This document shows positions 7,216-27,823 of a stretch of 33,579 nt of DNA, in pieces (position 1 is the first letter of the stretch; each line of letters opens with the position of its first letter). Under the pieces are notes generated by a model. The model saw nothing but the letters and a program-made list of their open reading frames with translations. It had not been told where the DNA came from and made no database searches. The DNA lies in NCBI RefSeq assembly GCF_001913705.1, contig NZ_MKQD01000041.1, positions 1-33,579 on the forward strand. The letters are read 5' to 3'. A program made the position numbers and the translations under genes. The stretch is from Thalassotalea sp. PP2-459 (GTDB taxonomy: Bacteria > Pseudomonadota > Gammaproteobacteria > Enterobacterales > Alteromonadaceae).

Positions 7216-7700
7216 AAAGCATTAATAACGAATAAAATAGATAACGATATTGCATTCACGAACATATGCGGAATTAGTGCCGCTGAGAAACCTTTAATAC
7301 TCGAGTATTTATACCAAACGATATAACTATGGCTGAAGATATAAAAATTCCAAAAGGTGCCAAAGACTTTCATCGGTGAAATTAATCCATGTAAAAAAGC
7401 CCAAGTCAATGATGAAACCAAACAAATTTGCCAATTACACAATGAGGTTTTAAGAAGACTTTTCAAAAAGACAATTAACAAAAATGTTTCAACAATTGGC
7501 GCAAAAACAACAGTACCAAATATGTCAAATATGGACATCTTAGGTTTAGAAAAAGCAACTAAAAGTTCGATTTGTAATAAAGTTGCACTGTGGAACACAA
7601 TTGACACTATTAACAAAGAACCAAAAAATGCAGACAAGCTAGCTATACAAACCGAGATTGCGAAAGAATTATTTCGATTGGGTAAAATAAAGGTCTTCAT
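7212..7700 (-). CDS. Small CPBP-like intramembrane protease-family protein
   Basis: A 162-residue, very hydrophobic protein with about four to five membrane segments. Remnants of the CPBP/Abi (CAAX protease, bacteriocin-processing) motifs are seen: E71 in VETFLL for motif 1, FLHG with H104 for motif 2, and HMFVN with H145/N149 for motif 3. Motif 1 lacks the usual second glutamate and the arginine, so activity is doubtful. It converges on the araC-type gene and the two stop codons share bases 7213-7214; its own stop lies inside the repeated araC tail. It is very AT-rich and has no good RBS before the ATG at 7700. This looks like acquired DNA. The family call is moderate; it could be an unrelated membrane protein. 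Confidence 0.55.
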   Translation of the reverse strand: MKTFILPNRNNSFAISVCIASLSAFFGSLLIVSIVFHSATLLQIELLVAFSKPKMSIFDIFGTVVFAPIVETFLLIVFLKSLLKTSLCNWQICLVSSLTWAFLHGLISPMKVFGTFWNFYIFSHSYIVWYKYSSIKGFSAALIPHMFVNAISLSILFVINAF

Positions 7701-8567: not shown

Positions 8568-9611
8568 TCACTTTTTCTCATTTTTATTCTTTTTAATAGT
8601 TTCATTAATCATATGAAGTAACCCCAAGTTAGCTGGCACGTCTTGCGATAGTTCCCAAATCATAACGCCAGCTCCTAACTGCAAAGCTAATTCAGTTTTT
8701 GCTTTGATGGTTTGGTAGCCATTAAAGGTAATGTAATCGCAATCAGCACAATTGTTACCAATTAGATCGCCCTTGCTTTTTTCAGGCCCAAACTCACCAA
8801 AAATATCATCGAATGTATAGTTTTTCTTATATTTTCCAAAGCCATAACCATAAAAAGGTAGGCCTAATATTAATTGCTTTTTACTGAGTCCTTTATTTCG
8901 CCATAGTGCTAAGTCAGCTTCCGCTTTCGCTAATGTAGAATGCTCAACACCTACACTTCCCCACGTTGGACCTACAGCGTCATATGACATGACAGAAACG
9001 AAATCAAAAAGAGGTAAAGTAGATTCTGGTAACATTCCACCAATGTAAGAACCCGTCGCCGCGGTAAGTAACTTGTCATGTGCCATCAAGCTTTGTTTTA
9101 ATGACTTAATGAAAGGTAAAAAATCTCCGTTGTTATCAATGTCAGTTAACATTTTACTTTCAATATCGATATCCAAACCATCGAATCCTAGTTCATGCAC
9201 AAAGGCCAACACGTTCTTTATCGTTTTGTCGCGATTTTCTGATAATAAGAGTGTGCGCCAATCCCCGGCACAAGATGGATAAGCTGCTCCGCCAATAGAT
9301 ACAAGAACTTTGACATTTGAACGATGAGCTTTCTCAAGCAAATGCTCAATTTCGCTTACCCTTAAAGGAAAACCATGTTGTCCAGTCATACAGCTCGGTT
9401 GATTATTTTCGATGAACTCCCCTTGTTTATTTGGGTGTAAAAAAGCTAACGTTAAATGCGTAACCTTTGATAAATCTATCCGTTCAAGTTGATTCTCTAT
9501 ACCATGGTAACTCGGTATATAGCCTATTATCATTGGTGTTGCATGCGCGCTAAAAGGCAACGCTAGCATTACCCCAACCACAACAAAGATGTTTTTTAGA
9601 AATTTATACAT
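8568..9611 (-). CDS. Secreted GH18 chitinase-family glycoside hydrolase
   Basis: A 347-residue glycoside hydrolase family 18 protein with a signal peptide (residues 1-24, ending SAHA). The single catalytic domain is complete: SIGG at 105-108, the DxxDxDxE motif as DGLDIDIE at 144-151 (acid/base Glu151), MSYD at 208-211 and a C-terminal MIWELSQD. Family members cleave beta-1,4 bonds of chitin or chitooligosaccharides through the substrate's N-acetyl group. There is no chitin-binding module, so soluble oligomers are likelier than crystalline chitin, although an endo-N-acetylglucosaminidase activity cannot be excluded. It is the last gene of the minus-strand glycan locus, about 200 bp after the halogenase, and has its own terminator. 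It contrasts with the catalytically altered GH18 domain at 15034-17832. Confidence 0.9.
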   Translation of the reverse strand: MYKFLKNIFVVVGVMLALPFSAHATPMIIGYIPSYHGIENQLERIDLSKVTHLTLAFLHPNKQGEFIENNQPSCMTGQHGFPLRVSEIEHLLEKAHRSNVKVLVSIGGAAYPSCAGDWRTLLLSENRDKTIKNVLAFVHELGFDGLDIDIESKMLTDIDNNGDFLPFIKSLKQSLMAHDKLLTAATGSYIGGMLPESTLPLFDFVSVMSYDAVGPTWGSVGVEHSTLAKAEADLALWRNKGLSKKQLILGLPFYGYGFGKYKKNYTFDDIFGEFGPEKSKGDLIGNNCADCDYITFNGYQTIKAKTELALQLGAGVMIWELSQDVPANLGLLHMINETIKKNKNEKK

Positions 9612-9810: not shown

Positions 9811-11316
9811 TCATTTATTCGCCCGGCAATGCTGATGAATAAAATCACTGTGCAATGGCATTGTGCTCACCGTATCTTTAATCAATTGCGCATTTTTCAT
9901 GAGCATATTGGCGAGTTTTTGAGGATCAAATCCATCGATCAAGGGGTAATATTTATTAGGACGAATATGCATGCCTTCTAGAACGGCGCACCAACTATTT
10001 TTAGTGAAAAAATCCCCATAAACACTTTTAAGTTCACCACGCTTTTTAAAAATAGATAAGGTCTCATTAAGGCTTTCAGGAATTGGCATTTGCTGACACA
10101 TCTGCCAAAAGTCAGTATCAGCACGCTGGGCAGTTGCATAATGCAGAATAATAAAGTCTCGTATTTCTAAATAATCTAGATCCATTTTTTGATTAAACAT
10201 TTGCTCGTTTTGCTCATCAAAGTCAGTATCTGGAAAATGCTGAGAAAAATTAACGAGTGTTTTATATACTAAATGAATCGCTGTTGACTCTAGTGGCTCT
10301 AAGAAGCCTCCTGCTAATCCTAATGCAAGACAGTTTTTATGCCATACTTTTTCTCTTTTACCTGTGGTAAATGGAATAACGTTAGGCTCAGTCAGTATTT
10401 TACCTTGCACATTGTTGGTCAATGTTTTTATTGCTTGTTCATCAGTGCAATATTTGCTTGAAAAGACATAACCATTACCCGTTCGATGTTGTAGCGGAAT
10501 AGTCCATGACCAACCAGCAGCTTGTGCTTTAGCAATGGTATAAGGTACAGGAGGCTGGTCAGTTTGTGTTTGGATAGTTACAGCACGATCACAAGGTAAG
10601 TATTTTGACCATTCTTCAACAGGAATACCTAACGCCTTTTCTATAAGCAGTGCTTTAAACCCAGTACAATCAATAAAAAAGTCACTGGTGATTTGTTTTT
10701 TACAATCAGTATGCAGTTGATCAATAAAGCCTTGTTCGTTTAGCACCACATCGCTAACAGTCGCTTCTATTCTCTCTACACCTCGTTGCAGACAAAGTTC
10801 TCTTAAAAAACGAGTTACTTGTGATGCGTCTAGGTGTAAAGCTGACGAACTGTTAGCTATCACCCAATCTTTCGTCTGTTTAGGCTTCAGGACGAAACGG
10901 TTATGCTTTGCCATTTCTGCATTAACGGAATAGTCCATTAAGGAAGCTTTATTCCCTTCTGATAAGGACTTAAGCCAAACCTGATAAAAATCAAAACCAT
11001 TTAAAGACCTTCCTATATGGCCAAATGGATGAAAATAATGCTCATTTACCGCGTACCAGTCATCAAAACGAATACCTAATTTGAAGGTCGCAGAGGTTGC
11101 TTTGATAAATTCTTTCAGATCTATTTGACTAGCATTTAAAAAGTCAATGATAGAAGGAACGGTAGATTCACCAACACCGATAGTTGAAATATCGGGTGAT
11201 TCCACTACAGTGGTCTTAATTTGACACCCTTTAAGTAGGTTAGATAGTAGCGATGCAGCCATCCAGCCTGCCGTGCCACCACCCACAATACAAATTGAAT
11301 TAATACCTTTTTGCAT
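9811..11316 (-). CDS. Flavin-dependent tryptophan-halogenase-family protein
   Basis: A 501-residue FADH2-dependent halogenase. The FAD motif GGGTAG is at 12-17, the catalytic lysine is K79 (in TFKLGIRF), the halogenase signature WSWTIP is at 269-274, and the glutamate E343 lies in PLESTAIHLV. All key residues are present, so it should form hypohalous acid and halogenate an electron-rich, possibly indole-like, substrate given reduced flavin. No flavin reductase or biosynthetic genes are nearby. Its partner is instead the TonB-dependent receptor 109 bp upstream, a pairing seen in Xanthomonas, Caulobacter-type bacteria and Alteromonadales, with unknown physiological substrate. The intergenic hairpin at 11374-11405 probably sets its level relative to the receptor. 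Confidence 0.9.
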   Translation of the reverse strand: MQKGINSICIVGGGTAGWMAASLLSNLLKGCQIKTTVVESPDISTIGVGESTVPSIIDFLNASQIDLKEFIKATSATFKLGIRFDDWYAVNEHYFHPFGHIGRSLNGFDFYQVWLKSLSEGNKASLMDYSVNAEMAKHNRFVLKPKQTKDWVIANSSSALHLDASQVTRFLRELCLQRGVERIEATVSDVVLNEQGFIDQLHTDCKKQITSDFFIDCTGFKALLIEKALGIPVEEWSKYLPCDRAVTIQTQTDQPPVPYTIAKAQAAGWSWTIPLQHRTGNGYVFSSKYCTDEQAIKTLTNNVQGKILTEPNVIPFTTGKREKVWHKNCLALGLAGGFLEPLESTAIHLVYKTLVNFSQHFPDTDFDEQNEQMFNQKMDLDYLEIRDFIILHYATAQRADTDFWQMCQQMPIPESLNETLSIFKKRGELKSVYGDFFTKNSWCAVLEGMHIRPNKYYPLIDGFDPQKLANMLMKNAQLIKDTVSTMPLHSDFIHQHCRANK

Positions 11317-11425: not shown

Positions 11426-14400
11426 TTAAAAGCTCCCTCTAAGCGTTAACGCATAACGACGGTCTGTGGTAAAAGTAAAGGCATTAGTTAAGGTACCTTC
11501 CTGATTTTGTTGATACTTAGTGTTGGTATCTTCGCCAAGTACATTACTCACTTCAAAGCCTACTTTAAAGTTGTCAGTAAGGTTGTAGTGAATGCTGAAA
11601 TCCATGAGGCCTTGAGCTTCTGAATACACAGGTACAAATTCAGTTGACTCACGTAGTGCCAATAAATATTCCGAACGCCATGTGTAAGCTAAGCGTGCTG
11701 AGATACCTTCATATTCATACATACCAACAATATTTACATTTTGATCAGAGTAACCTACCAATGGCAAATCGCTGAACTGTCGGAAAGAATTACGTCCGTC
11801 AGGTGCTTCTAGCGAGCCATTCGAGAAACGTGATTGTAACGATGGGTTTTGATTTGGATCTTCAAGTCCATCTTGGTCGATAAAGGTATAATTCAACTGT
11901 AAGCCTAAACCTTTCCATGCACCGGGAAGCATATCGTAGAACTGGGTATATGAAACTTCATAACCTTGAATCGTTCCAGAGCCTTCATTACTTGGGCCAT
12001 AAGCTGATACGGTATAGTCTTGACCATTCGCTTCAACCGTTGATGCGAAGGATTTATTTCGAATAATACCGTCTAGCTTTTTATGAAATAAACCAAACGT
12101 TAACGAACCTGTTTCTGAAAAGTACCATTCAGCTGTTAAATCCAAATTCACCGATTCTTCAGGATCTAAATACGGGTTACGTGCATTAGCGGTAATTTCA
12201 ATGTTTTTGTAGTCAACAACAGGGTTTGTCTCTTCATTTTCTTCTAGATTAGGATCTTGAAGCACGCTTTCAGCATTTAAACTGACAAACATTTTGTTCA
12301 CTGAATCTGTTAAACTCGGGAAGTAAATCCCTTTTGACGCACCAAATCGCACAACCACATCATCGCCAATACCAAAGTTTAGGTTTAAACTTGGCAGCAC
12401 TGTTGAGTAGTTATGTTCTACCGTTGAGAAAAATGCTTCACCGGTAGATAAACTGACAAGCTCAGGGTAAAGATCTTCCCACACTTGACGTCGAGCAGTC
12501 CCTTCTTGGCTGACAGATGCAGGTGCAGGTAGTGTAACGGCACCTGTCGATTCAAGATCATAATCAACTGAACGTAAGCCAACATTACCGGTCAAATAAA
12601 TATCATTCGATAAATCAACTTCGAAATCTGCACGTAAGTAAAACTCTGTACGTTGTGTGTTAGTTTCACTGATATGGCGCGCAGCAAAAGGTCCATCTAC
12701 CCTGCCGGTCATATCTTCGTACGGAATCGCACAATCTCCGCTTTGATCCCACGCATTATCGAGTGAGAAATACGTACCGCAACCATCACGTAATGTTTGA
12801 TCAAAATTTTCGGTAAGATCCATCCTTGGGAATAAATAGCTAGTGAATGGGCCTTGTACGGTATGACCTCGGAAATGATCTTTAAATTCAACACGTTCAA
12901 ATAGCTCAGGTGCAACTTGTGGTGAAGAAAGGTAGGCTTCGTCCGCTTCCCACCGTTTGTTCAACGGCTGCCAACCTTCGTATTCCGTATTTCGAGCAAT
13001 TAAATTTTTGTCTGAGTAAAACGCGCCAGCATAAACTTTGGTAAACATGCCCTTTTCAATGACATATTCTAGATCAAGTTTAAAGGAGTCTGATTCAGCA
13101 TCATTGACTTCTAGCTGTGGTAAACCTGAGTATAAGCTCAATACTGGATGGGTATATTCAAGATCGCCTTCTTCATTTGTTATAGGACCTTCAACATCTG
13201 GTGGGTTAGAGATACCACTGTTGAGAAATTCCACCGATGGCGTTTCATTACGAAGATCTAAGAAAAACGGCGCATATTGATCAGTATAAGCACCACCACG
13301 AACTGAAGCCGTTAGTTGATAATTATCAACAGTGCGTTCAGAGTCAACGTTTTGGTAATCAAAGTGAACCGTTAAGTTATCGGTCGCTTTAAACCTAACA
13401 TTAATAGACGTATCTGCAATCTCGCTTTCTGTATTGTTATAACGAGAAGAAAAGTTATGGTGATATTGACCTGTTGTTAAATCACCAACACCTGATGTTA
13501 CATAACCATTTTCATCAACCGTTAATGGATAACGATTGCTTCCTGCACCCCACTGGATACCGTCTGGCACAGCTGATACGAAGCCACGTTCACCATTAAA
13601 GATCACATATTCGCGCCAATCTAACGATGCTTTCGAGTAAATATGCTCTACCGTCACTAACGTTCTTTCATCTGGGCTTTCCCACTGCACTGATGCGGTT
13701 AAACCGGTGCGTTTACGCTCATTTTCTGCCGTTGTGATCGTCAACGCTGCTGGCGTATAATAAGTAACACCATCTGGTTGACCCTCTACTGGGCCGCCTT
13801 CATATGGAGGAACATAATTTGCCTCATCTTCTTCGGTATAAAGACTTGACGGTTCACAAGTTCCGTCCCAAGACTGCACAGAAAGCGAACAAGGACCGTC
13901 CCAATAGCCAGCTACTATACCTGGTCCCCTCAACTCGCCCCAGTTTTCATAATGAAATGGAACAGGGCCTCGACTATGATAATTACCTAAACCAAAACCA
14001 TCACCTTTAGTTTTAAATTCAGATCTAGAACCCGCAACTAAAATGCCCCATTTACCTGAATTTGTTTCCCAGCTATCAGAAAGTAACATATTAAATGAAG
14101 GTGTTGCCTCTTCACGATAATCGCCATAATTTGCTTTAGCGCCAAAAGCAAACACACGCTCATCAGAGTCAAACGGTTTACGCGTAATAAGGTTAACGGT
14201 ACCTGCAATACCGCCTGAAATTAGATCAGCGGTTTGGTTTTTAACAACTTCTACAGCTCCTAGCAATTCCGCCGGAAAGTCTTCATAACTTAACCCACCG
14301 TTTGGATTTGCACTAAACGCGCCTCGGCCATTAATTTCACTACGTACGCGATCTAAACCACGAACTAACACGCCTGTTCCTTCATCCGCAAAGTGCTTAG

Positions 14401-14710
14401 GATCATCTGAAGCAGCAAACCGTTCAATAGTAACGCCCGGAACGCGTTGTAAAGCTTCAGTTACTGATTTATCTGGCAATGCACCAATATCTGTCGCGGT
14501 AATAACATCCTTAACCGTATCAGCCATACGTTTAAGGTCTTGAGCTGAAGCAATACTTTTTCGTATTCCCAATACCTCAATAACTTCAACATTTTCATCT
14601 TCAGCTTTTTTGCTGTCTGTTTCTTCTTGATAAGCGATGGCAGAATGCGAGTAAGCTAACGCACTACAAACGGCTATCGATAATAAGTTTTTATTGAATT
14701 TTTTAGTCAT
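11426..14710 (-). CDS. TonB-dependent outer-membrane receptor (large glycan-type)
   Basis: A 1094-residue outer-membrane transporter powered by TonB/ExbBD. The signal peptide ends near residue 26 (HSAIA). The plug domain (about 45-170) contains ALPDKSVTEALQRVPGV, NQTADLISGGIAGTVNL and the DRVRSEINGRG segment, all typical of the long TIGR01782-type receptors of Alteromonadales and Caulobacter that import oligosaccharides. The rest is a 22-strand barrel ending in the aromatic residue of ALTLRGSF. It sits between the GH18-LytTR regulator upstream and the halogenase and chitinase genes downstream, so a chitin-derived oligosaccharide is the best guess for its substrate (inference). Its 323-bp upstream region carries a perfect palindrome at 14821-14834 and other repeats. 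Confidence 0.93.
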   Translation of the reverse strand: MTKKFNKNLLSIAVCSALAYSHSAIAYQEETDSKKAEDENVEVIEVLGIRKSIASAQDLKRMADTVKDVITATDIGALPDKSVTEALQRVPGVTIERFAASDDPKHFADEGTGVLVRGLDRVRSEINGRGAFSANPNGGLSYEDFPAELLGAVEVVKNQTADLISGGIAGTVNLITRKPFDSDERVFAFGAKANYGDYREEATPSFNMLLSDSWETNSGKWGILVAGSRSEFKTKGDGFGLGNYHSRGPVPFHYENWGELRGPGIVAGYWDGPCSLSVQSWDGTCEPSSLYTEEDEANYVPPYEGGPVEGQPDGVTYYTPAALTITTAENERKRTGLTASVQWESPDERTLVTVEHIYSKASLDWREYVIFNGERGFVSAVPDGIQWGAGSNRYPLTVDENGYVTSGVGDLTTGQYHHNFSSRYNNTESEIADTSINVRFKATDNLTVHFDYQNVDSERTVDNYQLTASVRGGAYTDQYAPFFLDLRNETPSVEFLNSGISNPPDVEGPITNEEGDLEYTHPVLSLYSGLPQLEVNDAESDSFKLDLEYVIEKGMFTKVYAGAFYSDKNLIARNTEYEGWQPLNKRWEADEAYLSSPQVAPELFERVEFKDHFRGHTVQGPFTSYLFPRMDLTENFDQTLRDGCGTYFSLDNAWDQSGDCAIPYEDMTGRVDGPFAARHISETNTQRTEFYLRADFEVDLSNDIYLTGNVGLRSVDYDLESTGAVTLPAPASVSQEGTARRQVWEDLYPELVSLSTGEAFFSTVEHNYSTVLPSLNLNFGIGDDVVVRFGASKGIYFPSLTDSVNKMFVSLNAESVLQDPNLEENEETNPVVDYKNIEITANARNPYLDPEESVNLDLTAEWYFSETGSLTFGLFHKKLDGIIRNKSFASTVEANGQDYTVSAYGPSNEGSGTIQGYEVSYTQFYDMLPGAWKGLGLQLNYTFIDQDGLEDPNQNPSLQSRFSNGSLEAPDGRNSFRQFSDLPLVGYSDQNVNIVGMYEYEGISARLAYTWRSEYLLALRESTEFVPVYSEAQGLMDFSIHYNLTDNFKVGFEVSNVLGEDTNTKYQQNQEGTLTNAFTFTTDRRYALTLRGSF

Positions 14711-15033
14711 GTTCCACTCTCATTTGCTTATAGTTTTTTTAATGGGCGCTTTGGTGTTATTAACATACTCGTGCTCGTTACAATACTTGCTTAGTTTTTC
14801 TGCATATTATTAACAACATTTGACAGCGCTGTCACCCTGATTTTGACTATATCAAGCACAATGACACAAGGATATATCAACAAACGGATCATATCATGAA
14901 ATGTAACAAAACAAAAAACAAATGATTGTTTTATAAGGTTTTTTTGTTCATTTCCATTGCTTTGACATTCATGAAATGTACTAGGATTCAATAAAAATAA
15001 TGGTAACAGGAGAGGTAAAATTGAATATAAGTA
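14711..15033 (-). promoter_or_regulatory. Upstream regulatory region of the receptor operon
   Basis: These 323 bp have no gene. An open minus-strand frame at 14791-14991 is compositional. The region holds the palindrome at 14821-14834, a 12-mer TCATGAAATGTA twice in the same orientation (14894-14905 and 14969-14980, 75 bp apart), and a short inverted repeat ACATT-N5-AATGT at 14965-14979 overlapping the second copy. It is the obvious place for the regulator encoded just upstream to act. Confidence 0.65.
14821..14834. promoter_or_regulatory. Perfect palindrome, candidate LacI-type (NagR-like) operator
   Basis: TGACAGCGCTGTCA is a perfect 14-bp palindrome with a central CG step, typical of LacI-family operators. 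From memory it matches the core of the NagR operator described for N-acetylglucosamine genes in Shewanella and relatives. It lies 111-124 bp upstream of the receptor ATG. On the minus strand its GTGACA could serve as a -35 with an AT-rich -10 about 17-19 bp on, so a bound repressor would block the promoter. No LacI-family gene is in the window. Confidence 0.65.
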
Positions 15034-17832
15034 TTATGAAAACCACTGAGGAAAATGCTCTTTAAGCATCGGAACATAGGTTCTGCTTACTGGTATTTTT
15101 ACTGAACCAATTTCAAGTTCAAACTTCAATTTAGCTACTGTATTTATTCTATCCACTTTTTTGGGATTCACTAAATATGAGCGATGCACTTGCACTAAGG
15201 CGACATCATCAAAATACTGCTTGATTGAGCGTAATCGCATGGAGATATAACGGGGTTCTTTAAGTGATTGAATGTAAATTCCCGTATAACCTGATTCAGC
15301 CTTAAGATACTTTATTCTATCTTTATAGCGTGTTAACTCATAAAGTTCTGCTAATATAGAAGGCTCTTTTAATAACGATTGAATCGCCTTTTGCACCATT
15401 AATGTTTGGTACACTAACACTTGTATTAATTGTTGTTCAGCTTCGCTCAATTTTTCCTGCGTAATAACTTCTACAGTAACGTCATCTGAATTAACCAATA
15501 TTTCGTGCCGAGAGGTTAAAGACTCTTTGCCAAGTTTACTGACAACTTGTTCGTGGTGAAAAACGCGTACTTTCGCTTCTTGTTGTAATATGTCAATAAA
15601 GTACTGACACGCTTGTTCTAAACCTTTATAAATATCTTTACTCGGAGCTGCCGACATATTAAAGGAGGTTATCGCCGCAAATAACGTTGAATATTCCTCG
15701 ATATGCGTTGAACTTGCATGAGGTATCACATCATGACTAGCTGATTCGTCTTCAATATTATCAGCGACTAAATTATCGGTTGATAAGGGCGAAAGGTGTT
15801 GATCAAATGTAAAGGCTAAAGAGCCAATATGCTGTTCATCATTCACGATAACATCATTATTAATAAGCACAGATAACAAGCCTTTTTCCCTATCCAAACG
15901 CATTGAGAAATCTAATAATTTAGCTTGATGAAATAACGTATTTAACCTTGTATGATTAATTTGATTGTTATCAGTGTTTACGAGTAATGTAATATTTAGC
16001 TGTATAGTTTGCTCAAGCGCAATAATATCTAGTGTTATGTTTTCGTTTGTGCTTTTCTGTAATATCACATAATCACATAAGTAATAAAGAAATTGCTGAA
16101 ACCTGTCTGGATTCACAAGCAGTCTGGCTTTTATCTGTTTATTCCATGTTAATCGCCTATTACTTTCGACTTCTAACAAAATATCAACATTTTGAATGAC
16201 TTGTTGAAGGCTAACAATTTCTTTAAATGATTGATTAACTGAAAAATTTAGTTTGGTTTCCGAAATAATAGAAGAAATAGGTAGTAATACTTCTGAAGAT
16301 AATTTAGCAAGGGACTCAACCTGTTCAGTAGATAATAGTGCTTTTTCTTGTGCGCTTTTAGCGACTGTAACAACATTAAGTAAAGGCCATTCAATACTCT
16401 GCATCCAATACTGCAACCTATTAAACTGTTGTTTTTCATGAAATAATTCATTATTTTTTTTATTTTGCCAATAAACGAACATAACTAAGCCAATAAGAAT
16501 AACAGCTAGCATTTGAAACAACACGATCAATGCATTACGATTTTCATGCCAAAACTGAATCAACTGATAATATCGACTTTTCAAAAAGTGGAACTGATCA
16601 AAAACATTAAATAATGCGGCATCGCCATGATGTAACTGGATAATTGCCACACCGGCCAGGTGGTTTTCTTTTACGTAGTCAGCTTTAGCCGCTATAGCTT
16701 TAGCGCCTTCATAGGTTATAAAATGTCCGCCATATTTATTAGGGTTATACACATAGTCTGTTTTGCCCACATCATCCCAATAATGTCGGTATTCGCCAGT
16801 AGCTAAGAAATACGTTAAATTCTTTTGATTGTATATCCCTGTAGCACCACTGCTTTTACTGTCCCAACTTCCCCAACTTAATGTTTGATGCGGTTGTTTA
16901 AAGCCATTATTTTTTGCTGGAACCCCTTCCCAACCAACAGCAAAAGAGGCAATTGAAATGACGATTTTTTCTTGTTTGACACCATACCCCACCATAGTAC
17001 TTACAACAGAATCTACAGAGCGTTCACCTTGTGCAGCATAAAGTGCTGATTGCGGCTCAGCTAATTCCCCTATATCGCCTGGTAACCGTGTAACGTCAAC
17101 TACAATAACATCAGCACTATTACTGAGTAAGCTTGCATCCCATGCATTTTCTAATGAGTAAGGTGCTAATACCGCTTGTAACCAACAATCTATGCTCATC
17201 TGTTCACACTGACGTTTAATTTCAGCGAGTAATAAATTTAAATGTTTACCATCTTCTTTACGGTAACTAGTAATTTCTGTGCTAGAAGCGCGATATATCG
17301 GAAACTGCCAGTCAATTTCAATTCCATCAAATTGATATTTCTGCATAAACTGTATCGCACTTTTTGCTAGCTTAGCTCTTCCATTTGGCGAAGCAGCTAT
17401 TGAAGAAAAGTGCTCAGATCGCCCCCAACCACCAATGCTTATTATTGCTTTTAATTCAGGTTGACGTTTTTTTACCTTTGTTAATTGCCCAAAGCTACCG
17501 AGAAATCGATCGTTTCTATCAGCCCCTGGGTAAAGAAACTCAATATCAGCATACGAATCGCCAAGAATAACCTCACCATCTTTGGTTAAGTCGGCACTTT
17601 TATAGACAAAGTGTGTCATTAAATGTGTAGGTAGATCTCGAATATGAATGTTTGGGCTATAGACTGACCACTGTGAATAGTAGCCCATAATAACAGGTGG
17701 TTTATTCTGTTCAGCATGGTTTATCGCTGACACATTGGCAGTATATAATAGAAATATTGAAAAAATAGACGAACAGAACAAGCGCAATGATTGTTTGTGA
17801 AAAAGAAAAGAGTCTTTAAAAGTTATTAACAT
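15034..17832 (-). CDS. Membrane regulator: inactive GH18 sensor, HK-like, GAF-like, LytTR
   Basis: A 932-residue protein with an unusual order of parts. Residues 1-36 are a signal peptide or N-terminal anchor. Residues 45-415 are a GH18 chitinase fold with SIGGWG at 132-137. The catalytic motif, normally DGxDxDxE, reads DGIEIDWQ at 169-176, so the acid/base Glu is Gln176 and the middle Asp is Glu172. The usual MxYD is replaced around 244-249, and the C-terminal Trp is Ile398. One membrane helix at 434-455 puts the rest in the cytoplasm: a degenerate histidine-kinase-like region (about 460-680, N-box-like around 574-590, no clear phospho-His), a GAF-like region (about 710-825) and a LytTR DNA-binding domain (about 833-930, with HRSYLVNP at 883-890). 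I infer a chito-oligosaccharide receptor that binds DNA from the membrane and controls the receptor-halogenase-chitinase genes just downstream. Confidence 0.88.
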   Translation of the reverse strand: MLITFKDSFLFHKQSLRLFCSSIFSIFLLYTANVSAINHAEQNKPPVIMGYYSQWSVYSPNIHIRDLPTHLMTHFVYKSADLTKDGEVILGDSYADIEFLYPGADRNDRFLGSFGQLTKVKKRQPELKAIISIGGWGRSEHFSSIAASPNGRAKLAKSAIQFMQKYQFDGIEIDWQFPIYRASSTEITSYRKEDGKHLNLLLAEIKRQCEQMSIDCWLQAVLAPYSLENAWDASLLSNSADVIVVDVTRLPGDIGELAEPQSALYAAQGERSVDSVVSTMVGYGVKQEKIVISIASFAVGWEGVPAKNNGFKQPHQTLSWGSWDSKSSGATGIYNQKNLTYFLATGEYRHYWDDVGKTDYVYNPNKYGGHFITYEGAKAIAAKADYVKENHLAGVAIIQLHHGDAALFNVFDQFHFLKSRYYQLIQFWHENRNALIVLFQMLAVILIGLVMFVYWQNKKNNELFHEKQQFNRLQYWMQSIEWPLLNVVTVAKSAQEKALLSTEQVESLAKLSSEVLLPISSIISETKLNFSVNQSFKEIVSLQQVIQNVDILLEVESNRRLTWNKQIKARLLVNPDRFQQFLYYLCDYVILQKSTNENITLDIIALEQTIQLNITLLVNTDNNQINHTRLNTLFHQAKLLDFSMRLDREKGLLSVLINNDVIVNDEQHIGSLAFTFDQHLSPLSTDNLVADNIEDESASHDVIPHASSTHIEEYSTLFAAITSFNMSAAPSKDIYKGLEQACQYFIDILQQEAKVRVFHHEQVVSKLGKESLTSRHEILVNSDDVTVEVITQEKLSEAEQQLIQVLVYQTLMVQKAIQSLLKEPSILAELYELTRYKDRIKYLKAESGYTGIYIQSLKEPRYISMRLRSIKQYFDDVALVQVHRSYLVNPKKVDRINTVAKLKFELEIGSVKIPVSRTYVPMLKEHFPQWFS

Positions 17833-17942: not shown

Positions 17943-18365
17943 TTAAATGAATGACAACCTTTGTTTTAAGGCAATCTCATTTAATACAATGGTTAATTTC
18001 TTATCTAAAATTGCTGCTAGTATAGATTTTTTTTGTTTCGCTAGTTCGATTTCTGTACCGGTCAATTGAACATAGCATTGATATTTACATTGTTCATCAT
18101 GATAAGCAAAATGCACATCATCGGCTAAAACGATAAACTCATCTGCAACGGGAAATAGTTGTTTTGGAAAAAACGGCTCGCTATTAACCGAAAACTCAAT
18201 GGTTAATTCCTGTTCTGGATCAGAAAACCACCCTGCGGTCATCGCAATAAAATTTAATTGCGCTTCTAATTTATTTACCACCGAGCTAATGTTAGCTAAC
18301 GATTTTTTAGCTTCATCAGCAGCCTTAATCTCAATAGGTAGTGCTTCAGACATTATTGCAAGCAT
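17943..18365 (-). CDS. Uncharacterised small cytoplasmic protein
   Basis: A 140-residue protein that I do not recognise. It has no signal peptide or membrane segment. The N-terminal third is a probable amphipathic helix or coiled coil (about 13-37), the middle is mixed beta with a CKYQCY pair of cysteines, and the C-terminal half has a Lys-rich helix. The likely start is ATG at codon 5 (MSEALPIE), since the preceding codons add little. It lies between the thiolase terminator and the GH18-LytTR gene, 110 bp upstream of the latter and on the same strand, so it could be co-transcribed with it. No function is proposed. Confidence 0.6.
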   Translation of the reverse strand: MLAIMSEALPIEIKAADEAKKSLANISSVVNKLEAQLNFIAMTAGWFSDPEQELTIEFSVNSEPFFPKQLFPVADEFIVLADDVHFAYHDEQCKYQCYVQLTGTEIELAKQKKSILAAILDKKLTIVLNEIALKQRLSFI

Positions 18366-18498: not shown

Positions 18499-19683
18499 TT
18501 AGATCATTTCTAACGCAATTGCCGTTGCTTCACCGCCACCAATACACAATGAAGCCACGCCTTTTGATAAACCTTTATTTTTTAACGCATGAATTAACGT
18601 TACCATGATACGCGCACCACTTGCCCCTAAAGGATGACCAAGCGCACATGCCCCACCATTAACGTTAACCTTTTCAACATCAAGAGATAAAGACTTAATC
18701 GCTAACATAGTTACCATGGCAAACGCTTCATTGATTTCCCAAAGTTCTACCTCATCAGTAGTCCAATTTGCTTTATCTAATACTTTTTTCATTGCCCCTA
18801 CAGGCGCAACGGTAAATTCAGCAGGCTTTTGTGCATGCGTTGCATGAGCAACGATTTTACATAAAGGTGCTAAACCGCGTTTTTCAGCTTCTGATTGCTT
18901 CATCATCACCAAGGCTGCAGCACCATCAGATATTGAACTAGAGTTAGCCGCTGTAATGGTACCGTCTTTTTTGAACGCTGGGCGTAATGAAGGAATTTTG
19001 TCCGGACGAGCATTCCCCGGCTGTTCATCAGTATCAAAAATAATCTCGCCTTTACGTGATTTAATGGATACAGAAGCTATCTCTTGGTTAAAAGCACCAC
19101 TGTCAATTGCTGCATTTGCTCGAGATAATGAGCGAATGGCATAGTTATCCATTTCTTCGCGGGTAAAGCTTGCTTCATCAGCAGTTTCTTGAGCAAAACA
19201 CCCCATTGAAATACCATCATAAGCATTTTCAAGGCCATCAATCATCATGTGATCAAGCAATTGTCCGCTACCCATTTTAATCCCGGAACGGCCAGAAGCT
19301 AGTAGATGAGGAGCATTGGTCATACTCTCCATACCACCAGCAACAGCAACATCGATAGAACCAGCAAATAATGCATCATGTGCTTGCATAGCCGCCTTCA
19401 TACCTGAACCACATACTTTATTAATAGTGGTACAAACGGTTGAAAGATCTAAGTCAGCTTCAAGTGCAGCTTGGCGTGCTGGTGCTTGTTTTAAACCAGC
19501 GGGTAATACACAGCCCATAACGACTTCATCAATTTGGTCAGCACTTAAGCCTGATTCAGCAACAGCGGCTTTAATTGCCGTTGCACCAAGGTTTGGTGCA
19601 GTTACCGCTGACAATCCACCTAGGAAGCCTCCCATAGGGGTTCGCTTAGCAGCAACAATAACCACAGGATCTTGCGTAGACAT
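18499..19683 (-). CDS. atoB: Acetyl-CoA acetyltransferase (thiolase)
   Basis: A 394-residue thiolase that should cleave acetoacetyl-CoA plus CoA to two acetyl-CoA, the last step of leucine and ketone-body breakdown. The nucleophile Cys91 is in INKVCGSG, His350 in GGACALGHPLGASGAR and Cys380 in LCIGGGEA. I chose ATG at 19683 because it has GGAG at 19690-19693 at good spacing; the longer frame opens with a TTG at 19695 that would place this ribosome site inside the gene. It diverges from liuR, and a LiuR-like palindrome lies 64-79 bp upstream of the start codon, which ties it to the leucine operon across the shared promoter region. A broader 3-ketoacyl-CoA specificity cannot be excluded. Confidence 0.92.
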   Translation of the reverse strand: MSTQDPVVIVAAKRTPMGGFLGGLSAVTAPNLGATAIKAAVAESGLSADQIDEVVMGCVLPAGLKQAPARQAALEADLDLSTVCTTINKVCGSGMKAAMQAHDALFAGSIDVAVAGGMESMTNAPHLLASGRSGIKMGSGQLLDHMMIDGLENAYDGISMGCFAQETADEASFTREEMDNYAIRSLSRANAAIDSGAFNQEIASVSIKSRKGEIIFDTDEQPGNARPDKIPSLRPAFKKDGTITAANSSSISDGAAALVMMKQSEAEKRGLAPLCKIVAHATHAQKPAEFTVAPVGAMKKVLDKANWTTDEVELWEINEAFAMVTMLAIKSLSLDVEKVNVNGGACALGHPLGASGARIMVTLIHALKNKGLSKGVASLCIGGGEATAIALEMI

Positions 19684-19746
19684 ATTATTCTCCAAAAATT
19701 AAAACAGTGTCATTTGACTTGTTAAACAGACTAACTCAAATTTACG

Positions 19747-19762
19747 TTTACGCCAACGTTAA
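19747..19762. promoter_or_regulatory. LiuR-like operator upstream of the thiolase gene
   Basis: TTTACGCCAACGTTAA matches 13 of 16 positions of the perfect palindrome at 19876-19891, and a further TTTACGTTTACG overlaps its left side. Its position in the thiolase promoter suggests co-regulation with the liu operon. Confidence 0.6.
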
Positions 19763-19875
19763 CTTAAGCTTTCAAAAGCAGAAAAGTACCACACAGTGTA
19801 TTAGAAAATTTCCACTATGCGTATCACACTATAGTCACATATGAGGAGAATAAGGTAGCCAAACCAAAAAGGAAG

Positions 19876-19891
19876 TTTACGTAAACGTAAA
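19876..19891. promoter_or_regulatory. LiuR operator, perfect palindrome
   Basis: TTTACGT-AA-ACGTAAA is a perfect palindrome 45 bp upstream of the liuR ATG. It fits the ACGT-containing palindromes recalled for gammaproteobacterial LiuR and the way MerR proteins bind promoter spacers. It should autoregulate liuR and control the operon. Confidence 0.78.
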
Positions 19892-19935
19892 GTTCATGCT
19901 ATGTTATCGACACTATTATTCATAATGGGTGCGAA

Positions 19936-20331
19936 ATGAGCAAGAAAAATAATGCAACCTACTCTATTGGCGAGTTAGCCAAAGAGTTTGATGTGACTAC
20001 ACGAAGTATACGTTTTTACGAAGATCAAGGGTTAATTCACCCGACACGTAAAGGTCAAACAAGAATTTATAACCAAAGAGACAAAGTTCGTCTAAAGTTA
20101 ATTTTACGCGGTAAACGTCTAGGTTTCTCATTAGCTGAAACAGGAAGATTGTTTGAGCTTTATGATGCCGATAGATCAAGTGCAACACAATTAACAACCA
20201 TAATGAAGTTAATTGCCCAAAAGAAATCTGATTTGACGCAGCAATTAGAAGACATTCAAGCGGTATTAGTTGAGCTTGATGGTTTAGAAGAAAACTGTAA
20301 AGACGCGTTGCATAACATAAATAATAAATAA
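19936..20331 (+). CDS. liuR: MerR-family regulator of leucine degradation
   Basis: A 131-residue MerR-family protein. The N-terminal winged HTH (about 9-75) begins YSIGELAKEFDVTTRSIRFY, with the family's EDQGLI. A coiled-coil dimerisation helix runs over about 85-125. There is no cysteine cluster for metal sensing, apart from one Cys near the end. LiuR proteins respond to branched-chain acyl-CoA intermediates and repress or derepress leucine-degradation genes. It is the first gene of the liu operon, 62 bp before liuA, and has the palindrome at 19876-19891 in its promoter. The stop codon lies inside a tandem ATAATAA heptamer (20321-20341). Confidence 0.92.
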   Translation: MSKKNNATYSIGELAKEFDVTTRSIRFYEDQGLIHPTRKGQTRIYNQRDKVRLKLILRGKRLGFSLAETGRLFELYDADRSSATQLTTIMKLIAQKKSDLTQQLEDIQAVLVELDGLEENCKDALHNINNK

Positions 20332-20341
20332 TAAATAATAA
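20321..20341. repeat. Tandem heptamer ATAATAA x3 at the liuR stop
   Basis: Three exact copies of ATAATAA run through the liuR stop codon (20329-20331). A gain or loss of one 7-bp unit would shift the reading frame at the extreme C-terminus only. Confidence 0.8.
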
Positions 20342-20393
20342 ACGCAATATAACGCACCCATTGCTAGACAAATATTACAATTAAGGAAACAAC

Positions 20394-21563
20394 ATGATTT
20401 CGACATTTTCATCACTTAATTTCAATCTTGGCGAAACCGTTGAGATGATCCGTAGCCAAGTAAACGCATTCGCCCGCGATGAGATTGCCCCACGCGCTGC
20501 TCAAATTGATATAGACAACGAATTTCCTGCTGATTTGTGGCGTAAATTTGGTGATATGGGTTTATTAGGTATGACTGTTGAGGAACAGTATGGAGGTTCT
20601 GAATTAGGCTATTTAGAGCATGTTGTTGCCATGCAAGAGATATCTCGCGCTTCCGCTTCAGTAGGACTGAGCTATGGTGCTATGTCAAATTTATGCTTAA
20701 ACCAGTTACGAAAAAATGGTAGTCACGAACAAAAATTAAAATATTTACCTAAATTATGTACTGGTGAACATATCGGCGCACTCGCTATGTCTGAACCCAA
20801 TGCAGGTTCTGATGTAGTCAGCATGAAACTTCGTGCTGAAAAGCAAGGAGATAAATACATTTTGAATGGTAATAAAATGTGGATCACTAATGGCCCAGAT
20901 GCCCATGTGTTTATTATCTATGCCAAAACAGATGTATCTGCAGGTTCAAAGGGGATTACTGCGTTTATTGTAGAACGAGATTTCCCGGGGTTTAGTCGCC
21001 ATCAAAAGCTCGATAAATTGGGTATGCGCGGCTCTAACACGTGTGAACTTGTGTTTGAAAATTGCGAAGTACCCGCTGAAAACATTCTTGGTGAAGAAGG
21101 CAAAGGTGTTCGTGTATTAATGTCAGGTTTAGACTATGAGCGCCTAGTATTATCAGGTGGTCCTTTAGGCATTATGGATGCTTGTATGGATCTCGTTGTT
21201 CCTTACGTACATGACCGAAAACAGTTTGGTCAATCTATTGGTGAATTTCAGTTAGTCCAAGGAAAAGTCGCCGACATGTACACACAAATGAACGCTGCTA
21301 AGTCGTACGTTTATATGGTAGCGCAAGCCTGTGACCGCGGTGAAACCACACGAAAAGACGCCGCAGCAGTCATTTTATATTCTGCAGAGTTGGCAACAAA
21401 AATGGCGTTAGATGCTATACAGTTACTTGGCGGAAATGGCTACATAAATGAATTTCCTGCCGGACGATTATTACGTGATGCAAAACTCTACGAAATTGGC
21501 GCTGGTACTTCAGAAATTCGCCGAATGTTAATTGGTCGCGAGCTTTTTAACGAGAGTAAGTAA
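20394..21563 (+). CDS. liuA: Isovaleryl-CoA dehydrogenase
   Basis: A 389-residue acyl-CoA dehydrogenase that oxidises isovaleryl-CoA to 3-methylcrotonyl-CoA and passes electrons to ETF. It has the complete family layout: the FAD/substrate segment [10 protein letters not shown] at 131-140, WITNG at 163-167 and a C-terminal segment with QLLGGNGY and [13 protein letters not shown]. The catalytic base Glu249 sits in [10 protein letters not shown], the helix position characteristic of isovaleryl-CoA dehydrogenase, unlike the C-terminal Glu of short- and medium-chain enzymes. It follows liuR and precedes the methylcrotonyl-CoA carboxylase genes, which settles the assignment. Confidence 0.95.
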
Positions 21564-21568
21564 CCCTA

Positions 21569-21602
21569 AACGCAAGGCTGATAAAACCATAAGTCTTGCG
21601 TT
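21569..21602 (+). repeat. Hairpin between liuA and liuB
   Basis: An 11-bp stem with one G-U pair (21569-21579 / 21592-21602, AACGCAAGGCT) and a 12-nt loop has no U-run. It is probably an mRNA-stability or partial attenuation element within the operon, not a full terminator, because the downstream genes have no obvious separate promoter. Confidence 0.55.
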
Positions 21603-21648
21603 GTTCACGCTAAATTTTAGTTGTTAATACAAATATTAAGGTAGCAAC

Positions 21649-23256
21649 GTGGCTAAGATCATTTCAAAAATTAATTCAAGAAGCCCTGAATTCATCGAAA
21701 ATGCACAACATATGCAGCTTCAAGTTGACGACTTAAAGCAAAAACTCAATCAAATAAAACATGGTGGTGGTGAACGCAGTCGTGATCGACATCTATCTAG
21801 GGGAAAGTTATTACCTAGAGATAGAGTTAATGAATTACTTGACCCAGGTGCTCCATTTCTTGAGCTATCACAATTAGCAGCTTATGAAGTCTATGATGAT
21901 GATGTACCGGCCGCTGGAATTATTACCGGTATTGGCAGAGTGGGTGGTCAAGAGTGTGTCATTGTAGCTAATGACGCAACGGTGAAAGGTGGTACCTACT
22001 ACCCACTAACCGTTAAAAAGCATTTAAGAGCACAAACCATCGCACAAGAAAACAATCTACCTTGTATCTACTTAGTTGATTCAGGTGGCGCCAACCTTCC
22101 TAATCAAGATGATGTATTTCCCGATAGAGAACATTTTGGTCGTATCTTTTTTAATCAAGCGACGATGTCTGCGAAAGCCATTCCTCAAATTGCCGTAGTT
22201 ATGGGGTCATGTACTGCCGGTGGTGCTTATGTGCCAGCAATGGCAGATGAATCTATTATTGTAAAAGAACAAGGCACTATTTTTCTCGCTGGCCCTCCTC
22301 TAGTAAAAGCCGCTACAGGCGAAGTGGTTTCGGCAGAAGACTTAGGTGGCGCAGACGTACATTGTCGAACCTCAGGTGTCGCTGATCATTATGCACAAAA
22401 TGATAATCACGCCCTCGAGTTGGCCCGAACTGCCGTTACAAACCTGAACCGTGTTAAGCCTGTTCAAATGGACATCAAGCCGGTAGTTGAGCCAGAGTAC
22501 CCTGTAGAAGATATTTACGGGATCATCCCAAAAGATACTAAACAGCCCTTTGATATTAGAGAAATTATTGCCCGAATTGTCGACGGCAGCGAGTTTGACG
22601 AATTTAAAGCATTATATGGCACAACATTGGTGTGTGGTTTTGCACGCATTTTTGGTTACCCTGTTGGTATTATCGCTAATAACGGTATTCTTTTTGGAGA
22701 GTCTGCACAAAAAGGCGCTCATTTTATTGAGTTATGCGCGCAGCGTAAAATTCCATTGGTCTTTTTACAAAATATCACTGGTTTTATGGTGGGCCAACAA
22801 TACGAGTCCGGCGGAATAGCTAAACATGGTGCAAAAATGGTGACTGCCGTAGCCACGGCACAAGTGCCTAAATTTACCGTCTTAATCGGTGGCAGTTTCG
22901 GTGCAGGTAACTATGGTATGTGTGGTCGCGCTTATGACCCACGCTTTCTCTTTATGTGGCCAAATGCACGAATTTCAGTGATGGGTGGCGAACAAGCTGC
23001 CGGAGTACTCGCACAAGTAAAACGTGATCAGAAAGAAAAACGCGGTGAAACTTGGTCAACAGAAGCAGAACAATCCTTCAAGCAACCTATTATTGATACG
23101 TATGAACATCAAGGGCATCCCTACTATGCATCAGCCCGCCTTTGGGACGATGGTGTTATTGACCCCGCGGACACCCGACAAGTATTAGGTTTAGCTATTT
23201 CCGCTTCATTAAATAAAGCCATTGAAGAGACCAAGTTTGGTATCTTCCGTATGTAG
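21649..23256 (+). CDS. liuB: Methylcrotonyl-CoA carboxylase, carboxyltransferase (beta) subunit
   Basis: A 535-residue biotin-dependent carboxyltransferase. It moves CO2 from biotin on LiuD to 3-methylcrotonyl-CoA, giving 3-methylglutaconyl-CoA. The N-terminal half has the acyl-CoA-binding segment with [11 protein letters not shown] and [11 protein letters not shown]. The C-terminal half has the carboxybiotin region with [20 protein letters not shown] and [10 protein letters not shown], both typical of MCC beta and distinct from propionyl-CoA carboxylase. The ATG printed in some frames is a GTG at 21649 (GTGGCTAAG), 12 bp after AAGG. Its stop codon overlaps the AGGAGG site of liuC, so the two are translationally linked. 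Confidence 0.95.
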
Positions 23257-23264
23257 GAGGCAAC

Positions 23265-24080
23265 ATGAATACACCTGAAAACTCTGTACTTTTTGATGTT
23301 GATCGTTATGGTGTTGCAACAGTAACACTCAACACTCCAGACAAGCATAACGCGTTTGATGACACTATCATTGATATATTAAAACGCTTATTCATTGATA
23401 TTGCTAAACGCAGCGATATTCGCATTATGATTCTGGCCGCAAACGGTAAAAGCTTTTCAGCGGGTGCTGATTTAGCTTGGATGAAGCGAATGGCCAATTA
23501 TAGTTTTGAAGAAAACCTAAACGATGCCAACAATCTTGCACAAATGCTACACGCATTAAACTTCATGCCACAAACAACCATTGCAAAAGTGCAAGGTGCG
23601 GCATTTGGCGGCGCTGTTGGCTTAGCTAGCTGTTGCGATATTGTCATTGCCAGTGACCGAGCTAGCTTTTGTCTAAGCGAAGTAAAACTAGGTCTAATTC
23701 CAGCTACCATCAGCCCTTACGTTGTCGCTGCCATTGGTCAAAAAGCAGCTAGGCGATATTTTCAAACCGCAGAAAGGTTTTTTGCTGAAAAAGCAAATCA
23801 ACTAGGGTTAGTTGATGAAGTCGTCGATCTTGAAGCGCTCGATAACACTGTAAATGATATGGTTTCAACACTTTTAGCGAATGGCCCAGAAGCGATTCAA
23901 CAAGCAAAACAACTCGCCTTAGATGTCGCTTTTCAAGACATTGACAATAAATTATTAGGTATTACCAGTGAGCGTATCGCCGCTATTCGTGTTTCAGATC
24001 AGGGTCAAGAAGGGTTAAATGCTTTTTTTGAAAAGCGTCAGCCACAATGGCAAAAAGTAGATAAGAATGAAGGACAATAA
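23265..24080 (+). CDS. liuC: Methylglutaconyl-CoA hydratase
   Basis: A 271-residue crotonase-fold hydratase that adds water to 3-methylglutaconyl-CoA to form HMG-CoA. It shows SAGADL at 65-70 and GAAFGG at 111-116 (oxyanion hole) and the catalytic glutamate E139 in LSEVKLGLIPA. AGGAGG at 23255-23260, overlapping the liuB stop, fixes the start at 23265. It lies between the two carboxylase genes, as in other liu operons. Confidence 0.92.
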   Translation: MNTPENSVLFDVDRYGVATVTLNTPDKHNAFDDTIIDILKRLFIDIAKRSDIRIMILAANGKSFSAGADLAWMKRMANYSFEENLNDANNLAQMLHALNFMPQTTIAKVQGAAFGGAVGLASCCDIVIASDRASFCLSEVKLGLIPATISPYVVAAIGQKAARRYFQTAERFFAEKANQLGLVDEVVDLEALDNTVNDMVSTLLANGPEAIQQAKQLALDVAFQDIDNKLLGITSERIAAIRVSDQGQEGLNAFFEKRQPQWQKVDKNEGQ

Positions 24081-24081
24081 C

Positions 24082-26130: not shown

Positions 26131-27035
26131 TGGCACTACCTAAGTCAGTAAAAATTGTTGAAGTTGGCCCTAGAGACGGCTTACAAAATGAAAAAGAACT
26201 CGTTGCCGCAAAAGATAAAATACAGTTAATTAACAAACTGAGTAACGCCGGATTAAGCTATATCGAAGCTGCAAGCTTTGTGTCGCCTAAATGGGTACCA
26301 CAAATGGCAACCTCTTCCGACGTAATGGCAGGTATAGAACGAAAAACAAACGTCACGTATGCGGCATTAACTCCTAATTTAAAAGGCTTTGAAGCAGCGC
26401 TTGCTGCAGGTGTTTCAGAAGTTGCTATTTTTGGTGCTGCTTCAGAAGCATTTAGCCAAAAAAATATTAATTGCTCAATAGATGAAAGCCTAGCGCGATT
26501 TGAACCTGTTATTCGTGCCGCAAAGCAACATGGCATACTTGTACGAGGTTATGTTTCTTGCGTAGTTGGTTGTCCTTACGATGGTGATATTGCACCAGAT
26601 ACAGTGGCTGAGGTTGCTGAAAAGTTATACAAAATGGGCTGCTATGAAATCTCACTTGGTGACACAATTGGCGTAGGTACTGTAGCCAGTGTCAATAAAA
26701 TGTTACAGGCAGTAAGCGCCCGAATCCCCGTAAAGCACCTTGCTGTTCACTTTCATGATACCTACGGTCAAGCGTTAACGAATATTTACGCCGCGTTACA
26801 ACACGGCGTAAGTGTTGTCGACTCAGCCATTGCTGGCTTAGGCGGTTGCCCTTATGCTAAGGGTGCTTCAGGTAATGTAGCAACAGAAGACGTTGTTTAT
26901 ATGCTAAATGGCTTAGCGATAGAAACAGGGATTAACTTCGATACCTTACTTGAAGCAGGCTGGTATATCAGTAACAAACTCGGCAAGGCACCGGTTTCAA
27001 AAGTTTCAAATGCATTTTTAGCTAAATGCGAATAG
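26130..27035 (+). CDS. liuE: Hydroxymethylglutaryl-CoA lyase
   Basis: A 301-residue TIM-barrel lyase that splits HMG-CoA into acetyl-CoA and acetoacetate. The metal-site residues are D16 in [11 protein letters not shown] and the HFH pair at 207-209. The active-site cysteine C240 is in the family signature [14 protein letters not shown]. It starts one base before the liuD stop ends, with AAGGAG at 26116-26121, so it is translationally coupled to liuD. Confidence 0.95.
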
Positions 27036-27112
27036 CTTTACTTTTATAATCATTCAAATTTTAATGATCAACTGCAACACTCGTTGATCTTACATTTAGC
27101 AAGGAGTTAATC

Positions 27113-27814: not shown

Positions 27815-27823
27815 GGAGTTAAC

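Follow-up and report, generated by a model that had tools for sequence, protein, structure and literature searches.

We analysed a 33,579-nucleotide stretch of DNA from Thalassotalea sp. PP2-459 (contig NZ_MKQD01000041.1, positions 1 to 33,579; the window below), which encodes on its minus strand a 932-residue protein with a glycoside hydrolase family 18 (GH18) domain near one end and a LytTR DNA-binding domain at the other. Judged from its sequence and its relatives, this protein is likely, with a probability of about 0.72, to be a membrane-bound one-component transcription regulator whose receptor is a pseudo-chitinase. Its role would probably be to sense chitin fragments outside the inner membrane and to turn on neighbouring genes for uptake and chitin digestion. 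A preliminary description had placed the protein at 15034-17832 without giving the strand and had joined a GH18 domain, a single membrane helix and a LytTR domain in one chain, and all of this holds. Pfam finds Glyco_hydro_18 at residues 48-397 (E 5.7e-58) and LytTR at residues 838-927 (E 1.5e-14), and among PDB sequences the best solved relative of the GH18 domain is the chitinase 5gzu (8.5e-71). Hydropathy gives one strong internal helix at about residues 435-453 and a weak N-terminal one at 19-37. The NCBIfam BtsR model matches weakly over residues 789-927 (3.1e-8, below the model's cut-off). The MHYT sensor has no Pfam match in the protein, and the GH18 domain occupies its place. A frameshift or a merger of two separate genes is ruled out by 21 intact relatives that carry GH18 and LytTR in one frame.

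A whole-protein search of 98 genomes, the window's own included, gave 16 GH18 plus LytTR proteins in 11 genomes, with the stretches picked from the hit table. A search of 394 genomes of the order, which undercounts at E 1e-25 with two candidates scored per genome, brought in one broken copy and, from four genomes, at least six more intact proteins. The family has at least 22 intact proteins including the window's own, plus the broken copy; a partial GH18 open reading frame at a contig end (L049) is excluded from the counts. Both domains were shown by Pfam in 10 of the 22 (the window protein and nine relatives scanned), and the remaining members were assigned by blastp. A helix between GH18 and LytTR is above the cut-off in 21 of 22 members, the member at L037 having none. 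The nearest named relatives found belong to Thalassotalea and Colwellia. Among 369 genomes of the class there was no member besides the window's own, either at E 1e-12 with two candidates scored per genome or with a LytTR profile at 1e-15. In a 398-genome sample of the phylum, the order included, the LytTR part matched only the window's own protein, again with two candidates scored per genome. The broken copy (L102, G285:C190) is interrupted by several stops, and two relatives in the same genus are intact. Two genomes of one genus have three GH18-LytTR paralogues each (L034, L037 and L040 in G069; L035, L038 and L039 in G093) with different neighbours, possibly one receptor per glycan.

The preliminary description had read the GH18 signature as DGIEIDWQ, with Gln176 in the place of the acid/base Glu, and had found the MxYD motif and the barrel Trp replaced. 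The alignment agrees; the MxYD stretch reads VVDVTRL and Ile398 aligns with the barrel Trp. The catalytic Glu is gone in all 22 intact GH18-LytTR proteins (Arg in 9, Gln in 7, Asn in 3, Pro in 2 and Ile in 1), as is the catalytic Tyr of MxYD (22/22), and the barrel Trp is gone in 18 of 22. The first Asp of the DxD motif is lost and the second, Asp174, retained in every member. Also retained in 22 of 22 is the Trp after SxGG, which we take to be part of the aglycon side of the GH18 groove. The neighbouring GH18 enzymes that served as alignment controls retain Glu, Tyr and Trp in 12 of 12. When every GH18 domain of 220 residues or more from the fetched loci was included (90 rows, 68 of them without LytTR), Glu and Tyr were both retained in 67 of the 68 domains without LytTR, the one exception being the GH18 fragment left in the broken regulator gene. 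Some of these 67 rows are the same gene fetched twice, and 63 are left after dropping rows that share a 100-mer. The barrel Trp is visible in 56 of the 67 and falls in the unaligned end in 11. By its sequence the window's domain is a GH18 fold that lacks the catalytic Glu and Tyr of an active chitinase. The idea of a still active or slow membrane-tethered chitinase that regulates through its products could appeal to the strong likeness to 5gzu and to the constant Asp174. We find it hardly credible, because the Tyr and the acid/base Glu are gone in every member, and Arg, Pro or Ile should be unable to take over the function of the Glu.

In a quick maximum-likelihood tree, the 22 dead domains and the piece of the broken gene form one clade (Shimodaira-Hasegawa-like approximate likelihood-ratio support 99), with Arg on deep branches and Gln confined to the window's seven-member sub-clade. 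This pattern suggests that catalysis was lost in a single early event and that Gln arose afterwards. The inner branching order is unsure because the catalytic columns were retained in the tree and some end branches are long. Conservation of Gln176 in homologues, suggested earlier as a check, is seen within the sub-clade, where it is fixed, but the other members hold Arg, Asn, Pro or Ile; as a rule of the family it is ruled out by the alignment and the tree. The likeness to the laboratory Glu-to-Gln mutant that binds without cutting, which the preliminary description had pointed out, is therefore probably a coincidence. Between the window and its nearest relative, the ratio of nonsynonymous to synonymous rates (dN/dS) is 0.049 for the dead GH18 domain, 0.113 for the kinase-like region discussed below and 0.019 for LytTR; these values come from one species pair and are rough because dS is 0.9-1.7. 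Going by these ratios, the dead GH18 domain is under strong purifying selection.

We suppose that the GH18 domain would lie in the periplasm and that its remodelled groove would bind a chitin-derived oligosaccharide without cutting it. The domain could instead sense a protein, with a periplasmic solute-binding protein or a chitinase docking on it and carrying the signal, as with the partner of Vibrio ChiS. ChiS is controlled by a chitin-binding-protein partner, and the loss of the -1 subsite Glu and Tyr from all members of a domain that stays strongly constrained would suit a docking surface. The retention of the Trp after SxGG in all members speaks against it, as does the absence of a periplasmic binding protein among the window's six neighbours scanned by Pfam, the other six sub-clade loci having been scanned in part. 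Sensing of a protein is in our judgement unlikely.

The part of the chain behind the membrane helix had been described as a degenerate kinase-like region, and this was confirmed. Fourteen members have a long middle region, and a profile built from them hits histidine kinases of known structure (ZraS, E 1.8e-7, and others), the match stopping short of the glycine boxes. With Pfam, HisKA appears in 5 of the 14 at E up to 1 (best 9.4e-7) and HATPase_c in 1 of the 14 at E 0.051; the window's own region has no Pfam match. In the 13 long members that could be aligned, the acceptor-His place, read by eye, holds Gln in 10 and His, Arg and Lys in one each, and the Asn of the N box is replaced. By sequence the region is thus a histidine-kinase relic, which has the DHp and CA likeness and lacks the acceptor His and the Asn box. 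The shortest members (588 and 614 residues, L048 and L038) have 88 and 96 residues between helix and LytTR and no kinase region, and Pfam found no receiver domain in the window protein or the nine relatives scanned. Taken together, the unconserved acceptor His, the degenerate kinase and the short members make signalling without phosphate the simplest reading. A phosphorelay, in which the kinase-like region still hands phosphate to a separate receiver, could build on the profile match and the HisKA hits. We consider it very improbable in view of the acceptor His in 1 of 13, the replaced Asn box, the marginal HATPase_c match, the members that lack the region and the DNA-binding domain in the same chain. 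The earlier suggestion that an enzyme fold had become a membrane-bound DNA-binding regulator without phosphotransfer fits these findings, as well as the absence of the catalytic residues from all 22 members and the dN/dS of 0.05.

Ligand binding would alter how the membrane helix and the dimeric kinase relic pack, and the paired LytTR domains would act while still held in the membrane. Alternatively, an intramembrane protease might free the cytoplasmic part, as with RsgI. The protein has a single strong membrane helix, and RsgI factors are cleaved by RseP (PMC12203970; this and the other papers given by PMC number are cited from excerpts). LytTR regulators such as CoxC are, on the other hand, reported to work membrane-bound (PMC11347149), and release by proteolysis seems to us rather improbable. 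A GAF-like region, also proposed in the preliminary description, found no support. The segment at residues 712-825 is conserved and nothing convincing matched it; the best chain among PDB sequences has E 0.81 and Pfam gives no GAF family, so the GAF identity was set aside.

The proposed sites of the regulator lie in the intergenic stretch 14711-15033, where TACATTTCATGA occurs twice on the coding strand of the TonB-dependent receptor gene with a spacing of 75 bp. A pair at 75-76 bp is present in six of the seven sub-clade receptor promoters at up to three mismatches and in all seven at up to four; in 500 dinucleotide shuffles it appeared in at most one promoter and at most two promoters, respectively. 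Further 75-bp pairs in the sister genomes of L042 and L043 lie 481 bp before the GH18 enzyme gene and outside the motif set, and may be regarded as more independent support for the motif. The exact TACATTTCATGA occurs at two places in the 4.08-Mb genome, both in the receptor promoter. The shorter TWCATTTCATGA has seven matches at six places, two of these in the receptor promoter, and the spaced core pair has 10 matches in seven genomes, six of them at regulator loci. The LytTR regulator YpdB recognises GGCATTTCAT in direct repeat (PMC4847170), and the core CATTTCAT is common to the TACATTTCATGA repeats and the YpdB site. The paired LytTR domains would bind the two repeats and turn on the receptor, the halogenase-like gene and the GH18-enzyme gene. 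Promoter boxes at -10 and -35, sought by eye, were too uncertain to be included.

The other four exact TWCATTTCATGA places are not counted as chitin targets, and a wider regulon was dropped. They lie within an ATP-synthase gene (C17), within an AraC-type gene (C19), in a familyless open reading frame some 500 bp past the end of a GH109 gene (C42), and in the gap that separates ThiF- and DUF3083-type genes (C85). GH109 is an amino-sugar hydrolase family; the C42 place is left out because the site sits behind that gene. A palindromic site of the TTCATTTCATGAA type lies about 500 bp from the end of the GH109-type gene itself (L147 5999-7459).

A second input may act on the same promoter. The genome has exact TGACARCGYTGTCA at six places (reversed control, 0), and one of them is the palindrome TGACAGCGCTGTCA beside the proximal repeat; we take TGACARCGYTGTCA to be the NagR motif. 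Two of the other places are at a LacI-type regulator gene, one is between GH3 and acetyl-CoA synthetase genes, one is between GH20 and halogenase-like genes, and one precedes a BadF-kinase/SIS/amidohydrolase/MFS group that reads, by its sequences, as NagK-NagB-NagA-NagP. NagR belongs to the LacI family of regulators, and TonB receptors are part of the NagR regulon in two Xanthomonas species (PMC5343134). The palindrome is exact in five of the seven sub-clade loci and has one change, by eye, in L043. A LacI-type NagR repressor would be relieved at this site; with the LytTR repeats, the operon would therefore answer to an oligosaccharide outside and to catabolism of N-acetylglucosamine (GlcNAc) inside. 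Tryptophan-halogenase-like genes recur near GlcNAc-regulon-like operators, with at least three in the window's own genome (L144 10809-12332 and 14016-15566; window 9811-11316).

Several observations count against the picture of a sugar-sensing regulator that acts at these sites. With Glu and Tyr gone, and in 18 of 22 members the barrel Trp as well, the -1 subsite may no longer be able to hold GlcNAc either. Structure predictions of the whole protein and of residues 705-932 (four sequences each) both had a mean predicted local distance difference test score of 43, too poor for use. The motif consensus was derived from the same seven promoters, which share descent, and the 7/7 pairing is therefore footprinting and not an independent test. 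When one mismatch is allowed, the genome has 95 matches to the motif and 71 to its reversed control, which is no strong enrichment of the loose motif across the genome. The four spaced-pair matches away from regulator loci in the seven genomes are as many as the reversed control gives; on these two counts, the sequence alone is weakly specific. No 75-bp pairs were found beside the regulators of other sub-clades, where only unpaired matches occur, and the palindrome was not found in the sub-clade locus L045. Known LytTR sites have 9-11-base repeats and 10-13-base spacers (PMC4847170, PMC11347149), and because of this the repeats, 75 bp apart, may belong to another factor. The spacing is the weakest link of the operator proposal. 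Under a rival reading, NagR and another factor, working through the palindrome and the repeats, would account for all control of the receptor operon, and the GH18-LytTR protein would act elsewhere. The spacing, unusual among LytTR sites, would then be no difficulty, but the repeats are present in seven of seven loci with the regulator next door, the exact TACATTTCATGA is found nowhere else in the genome and the core is the one of YpdB. We hold this rival reading to be unlikely.

The gene neighbourhood is consistent with a regulator of glycan uptake in the sub-clade. In all seven loci the regulator is directly followed by the TonB receptor gene and then by the halogenase-like gene, and a true GH18 enzyme is present (7/7). 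A Cupin_8-type gene and a second halogenase-like gene are added in four of the seven, one of which was scanned by Pfam. The preliminary description had asked whether TonB-receptor genes are always adjacent; this is so in the sub-clade, but blastp found no relative of the window's receptor in the 15 other regulator loci. In 10 of these 15 a GH18 enzyme or a polysaccharide-deacetylase-type gene is near the regulator. GH18 enzymes adjoin it in L039, L040, L096, L098 and L037, and deacetylase-type genes with chitin-binding parts are near it in L034, L035, L097, L099 and L036 (two of the five scanned by Pfam, the remainder assigned by cluster). The remaining loci, L041, L048, L038, L100 and L101, have neither a GH18 enzyme (blastp) nor a deacetylase of that cluster within the fetched stretch. 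Over the family, a GH18 enzyme is nearby in 12 of 22 regulator loci and a deacetylase-type gene in five more.

For the family as a whole, we see an even chance of the following. It would be a monophyletic family of bacterial receptors in which the chitinase barrel gave up catalysis a single time, had its fold preserved by selection and came to serve as the ligand-binding head of a membrane transcription factor that is made in one piece and works through a dead histidine kinase. The window's sub-clade would then govern the uptake of glycans by way of two half-operators some seven helical turns from each other, to which a LytTR pair held in the membrane would bind, perhaps with looping of the DNA.

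Parts of this design have precedents. ChiS of Vibrio resembles the proposed regulator in that it governs chitin genes from the membrane and has a DNA-binding cytoplasmic part derived from a kinase; it differs in its sensor, its control by a binding protein and its DNA-binding domain. The Pfam and NCBIfam scans of the window, in which no ChiS sequence was compared, named neither the ChiS sensor nor its DNA-binding domain. Animal chitinase-like lectins such as YKL-40 and Ym1 bind glycans through a GH18 fold that lacks the catalytic Glu, but they are soluble and secreted and have no membrane helix or DNA-binding domain; Ym1 chains are among the PDB matches of the GH18 domain. CoxC has a membrane sensor and a C-terminal LytTR domain in one chain and a direct-repeat operator, but its sensor is a seven-helix gas-sensing MHYT domain and not a periplasmic enzyme fold, it represses, and its operator consists of three close repeats (PMC11347149). 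HigX of Caulobacter is also a LytTR factor held in the membrane, and the LytTR proteins of Caulobacter crescentus are all likely transmembrane (PMC13384398). RsgI6 of Clostridium thermocellum uses a GH10 fold outside the membrane as a polysaccharide sensor, with very low activity and retained binding, but belongs to another GH family and a Gram-positive organism, and is an anti-sigma factor rather than a DNA-binding regulator (PMC4711584). YpdB and BtsR of E. coli share the LytTR domain, but are response regulators with separate kinases and a site spacing of 11-13 bases (PMC4847170).

The earlier statement that no regulator of such design had been described is nearly right. It is qualified by Andreprevotia ripae, for which LytTR is named in the legend of Fig. 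1 on GH18 proteins and a regulatory role is not discussed in the excerpt (PMC8802321). Four of its 25 secreted GH18 proteins lack the catalytic Glu (PMC8802321). We found no description of such a regulator in the literature searched, most subscription papers and preprints being outside its reach. Glycoside-hydrolase-derived sensors (RsgI6) and membrane LytTR regulators (CoxC, HigX) are known already; what is new is that these domains are combined, that catalysis is lost throughout the clade, and that an operator and a regulon can be proposed. If the proposal is right, the family would offer a clean natural case of an enzyme turned receptor, with one loss of catalysis, a whole clade to compare, true enzymes with this fold in neighbouring genes that can serve as controls, and a proposed operator. 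It would become possible to test by what route a glycan signal passes a membrane without phosphotransfer and in what way a factor held in the membrane reaches two sites 75 bp from each other, and the case would bear on how marine chitin degraders outside Vibrio turn on uptake. It is also a caution for annotation, since we expect that GH18-LytTR genes are likely to be named chitinases.

Table. Positions in the window of the regulator gene, its parts, the proposed target genes and the proposed sites
Feature	Position	Strand	Basis
GH18-transmembrane-LytTR regulator gene, 932 residues	15034..17832	-	Open reading frame list
Hydrophobic N-terminal segment (signal or signal anchor), residues 19-37	17722..17778	-	Hydropathy
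Pseudo-GH18 domain, residues 45-403, periplasmic by predicted topology	16624..17700	-	Pfam, PDB match, profile match
Gln176 codon, place of catalytic Glu	17305..17307	-	Alignment
Membrane helix, residues 435-453	16474..16530	-	Hydropathy 2.98
Degenerate histidine-kinase-like region (DHp and first part of CA domain), residues 458-690	15763..16461	-	Profile match
Conserved segment ahead of LytTR without a convincing match, residues 712-825	15358..15699	-	
LytTR DNA-binding domain, residues 838-927	15052..15321	-	Pfam
TonB-dependent receptor, proposed target	11426..14710	-	Pfam/NCBIfam; adjoins regulator in 7/7 sub-clade loci
Tryptophan-halogenase-like protein, proposed target operon	9811..11316	-	Pfam; 7/7 sub-clade loci
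GH18 enzyme with intact DGxDxDxE, proposed target operon	8568..9611	-	Pfam, alignment; 7/7 sub-clade loci
Upstream direct repeat TACATTTCATGA, proposed regulator site 1	14969..14980	-	
Downstream direct repeat TACATTTCATGA, 75 bp from site 1, proposed regulator site 2	14894..14905	-	
Palindrome TGACAGCGCTGTCA, NagR-like (GlcNAc regulon) candidate operator	14821..14834	.	

Other genes around the regulators were also noted. Upstream of the window's regulator gene, 17943-18365 encodes a 140-residue protein that has no Pfam match above the cut-off and no NCBIfam match, and is found in four of the seven sub-clade loci. At L048, a PatG-like subtilase with a PatG_C domain (5544-7478) is near the GH18-LytTR gene. 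At L101 (11417-17292), the GH18-LytTR gene is beside phosphoenolpyruvate carboxylase and M20 peptidase genes, with a chemotaxis receptor gene near; the same gene cluster accompanies the broken copy in L102, and the genes that L100 has in common with L101 are those on the other side of the regulator. The window region 18499-28483 holds, as judged by reading the sequence, thiolase, MerR-type regulator, acyl-CoA dehydrogenase, hydroxymethylglutaryl-CoA-lyase-like and CoA-transferase genes and a carboxylase pair. From its gene content it reads like a leucine/isovalerate degradation cluster, and several of its genes adjoin the regulator in five of the seven sub-clade loci.

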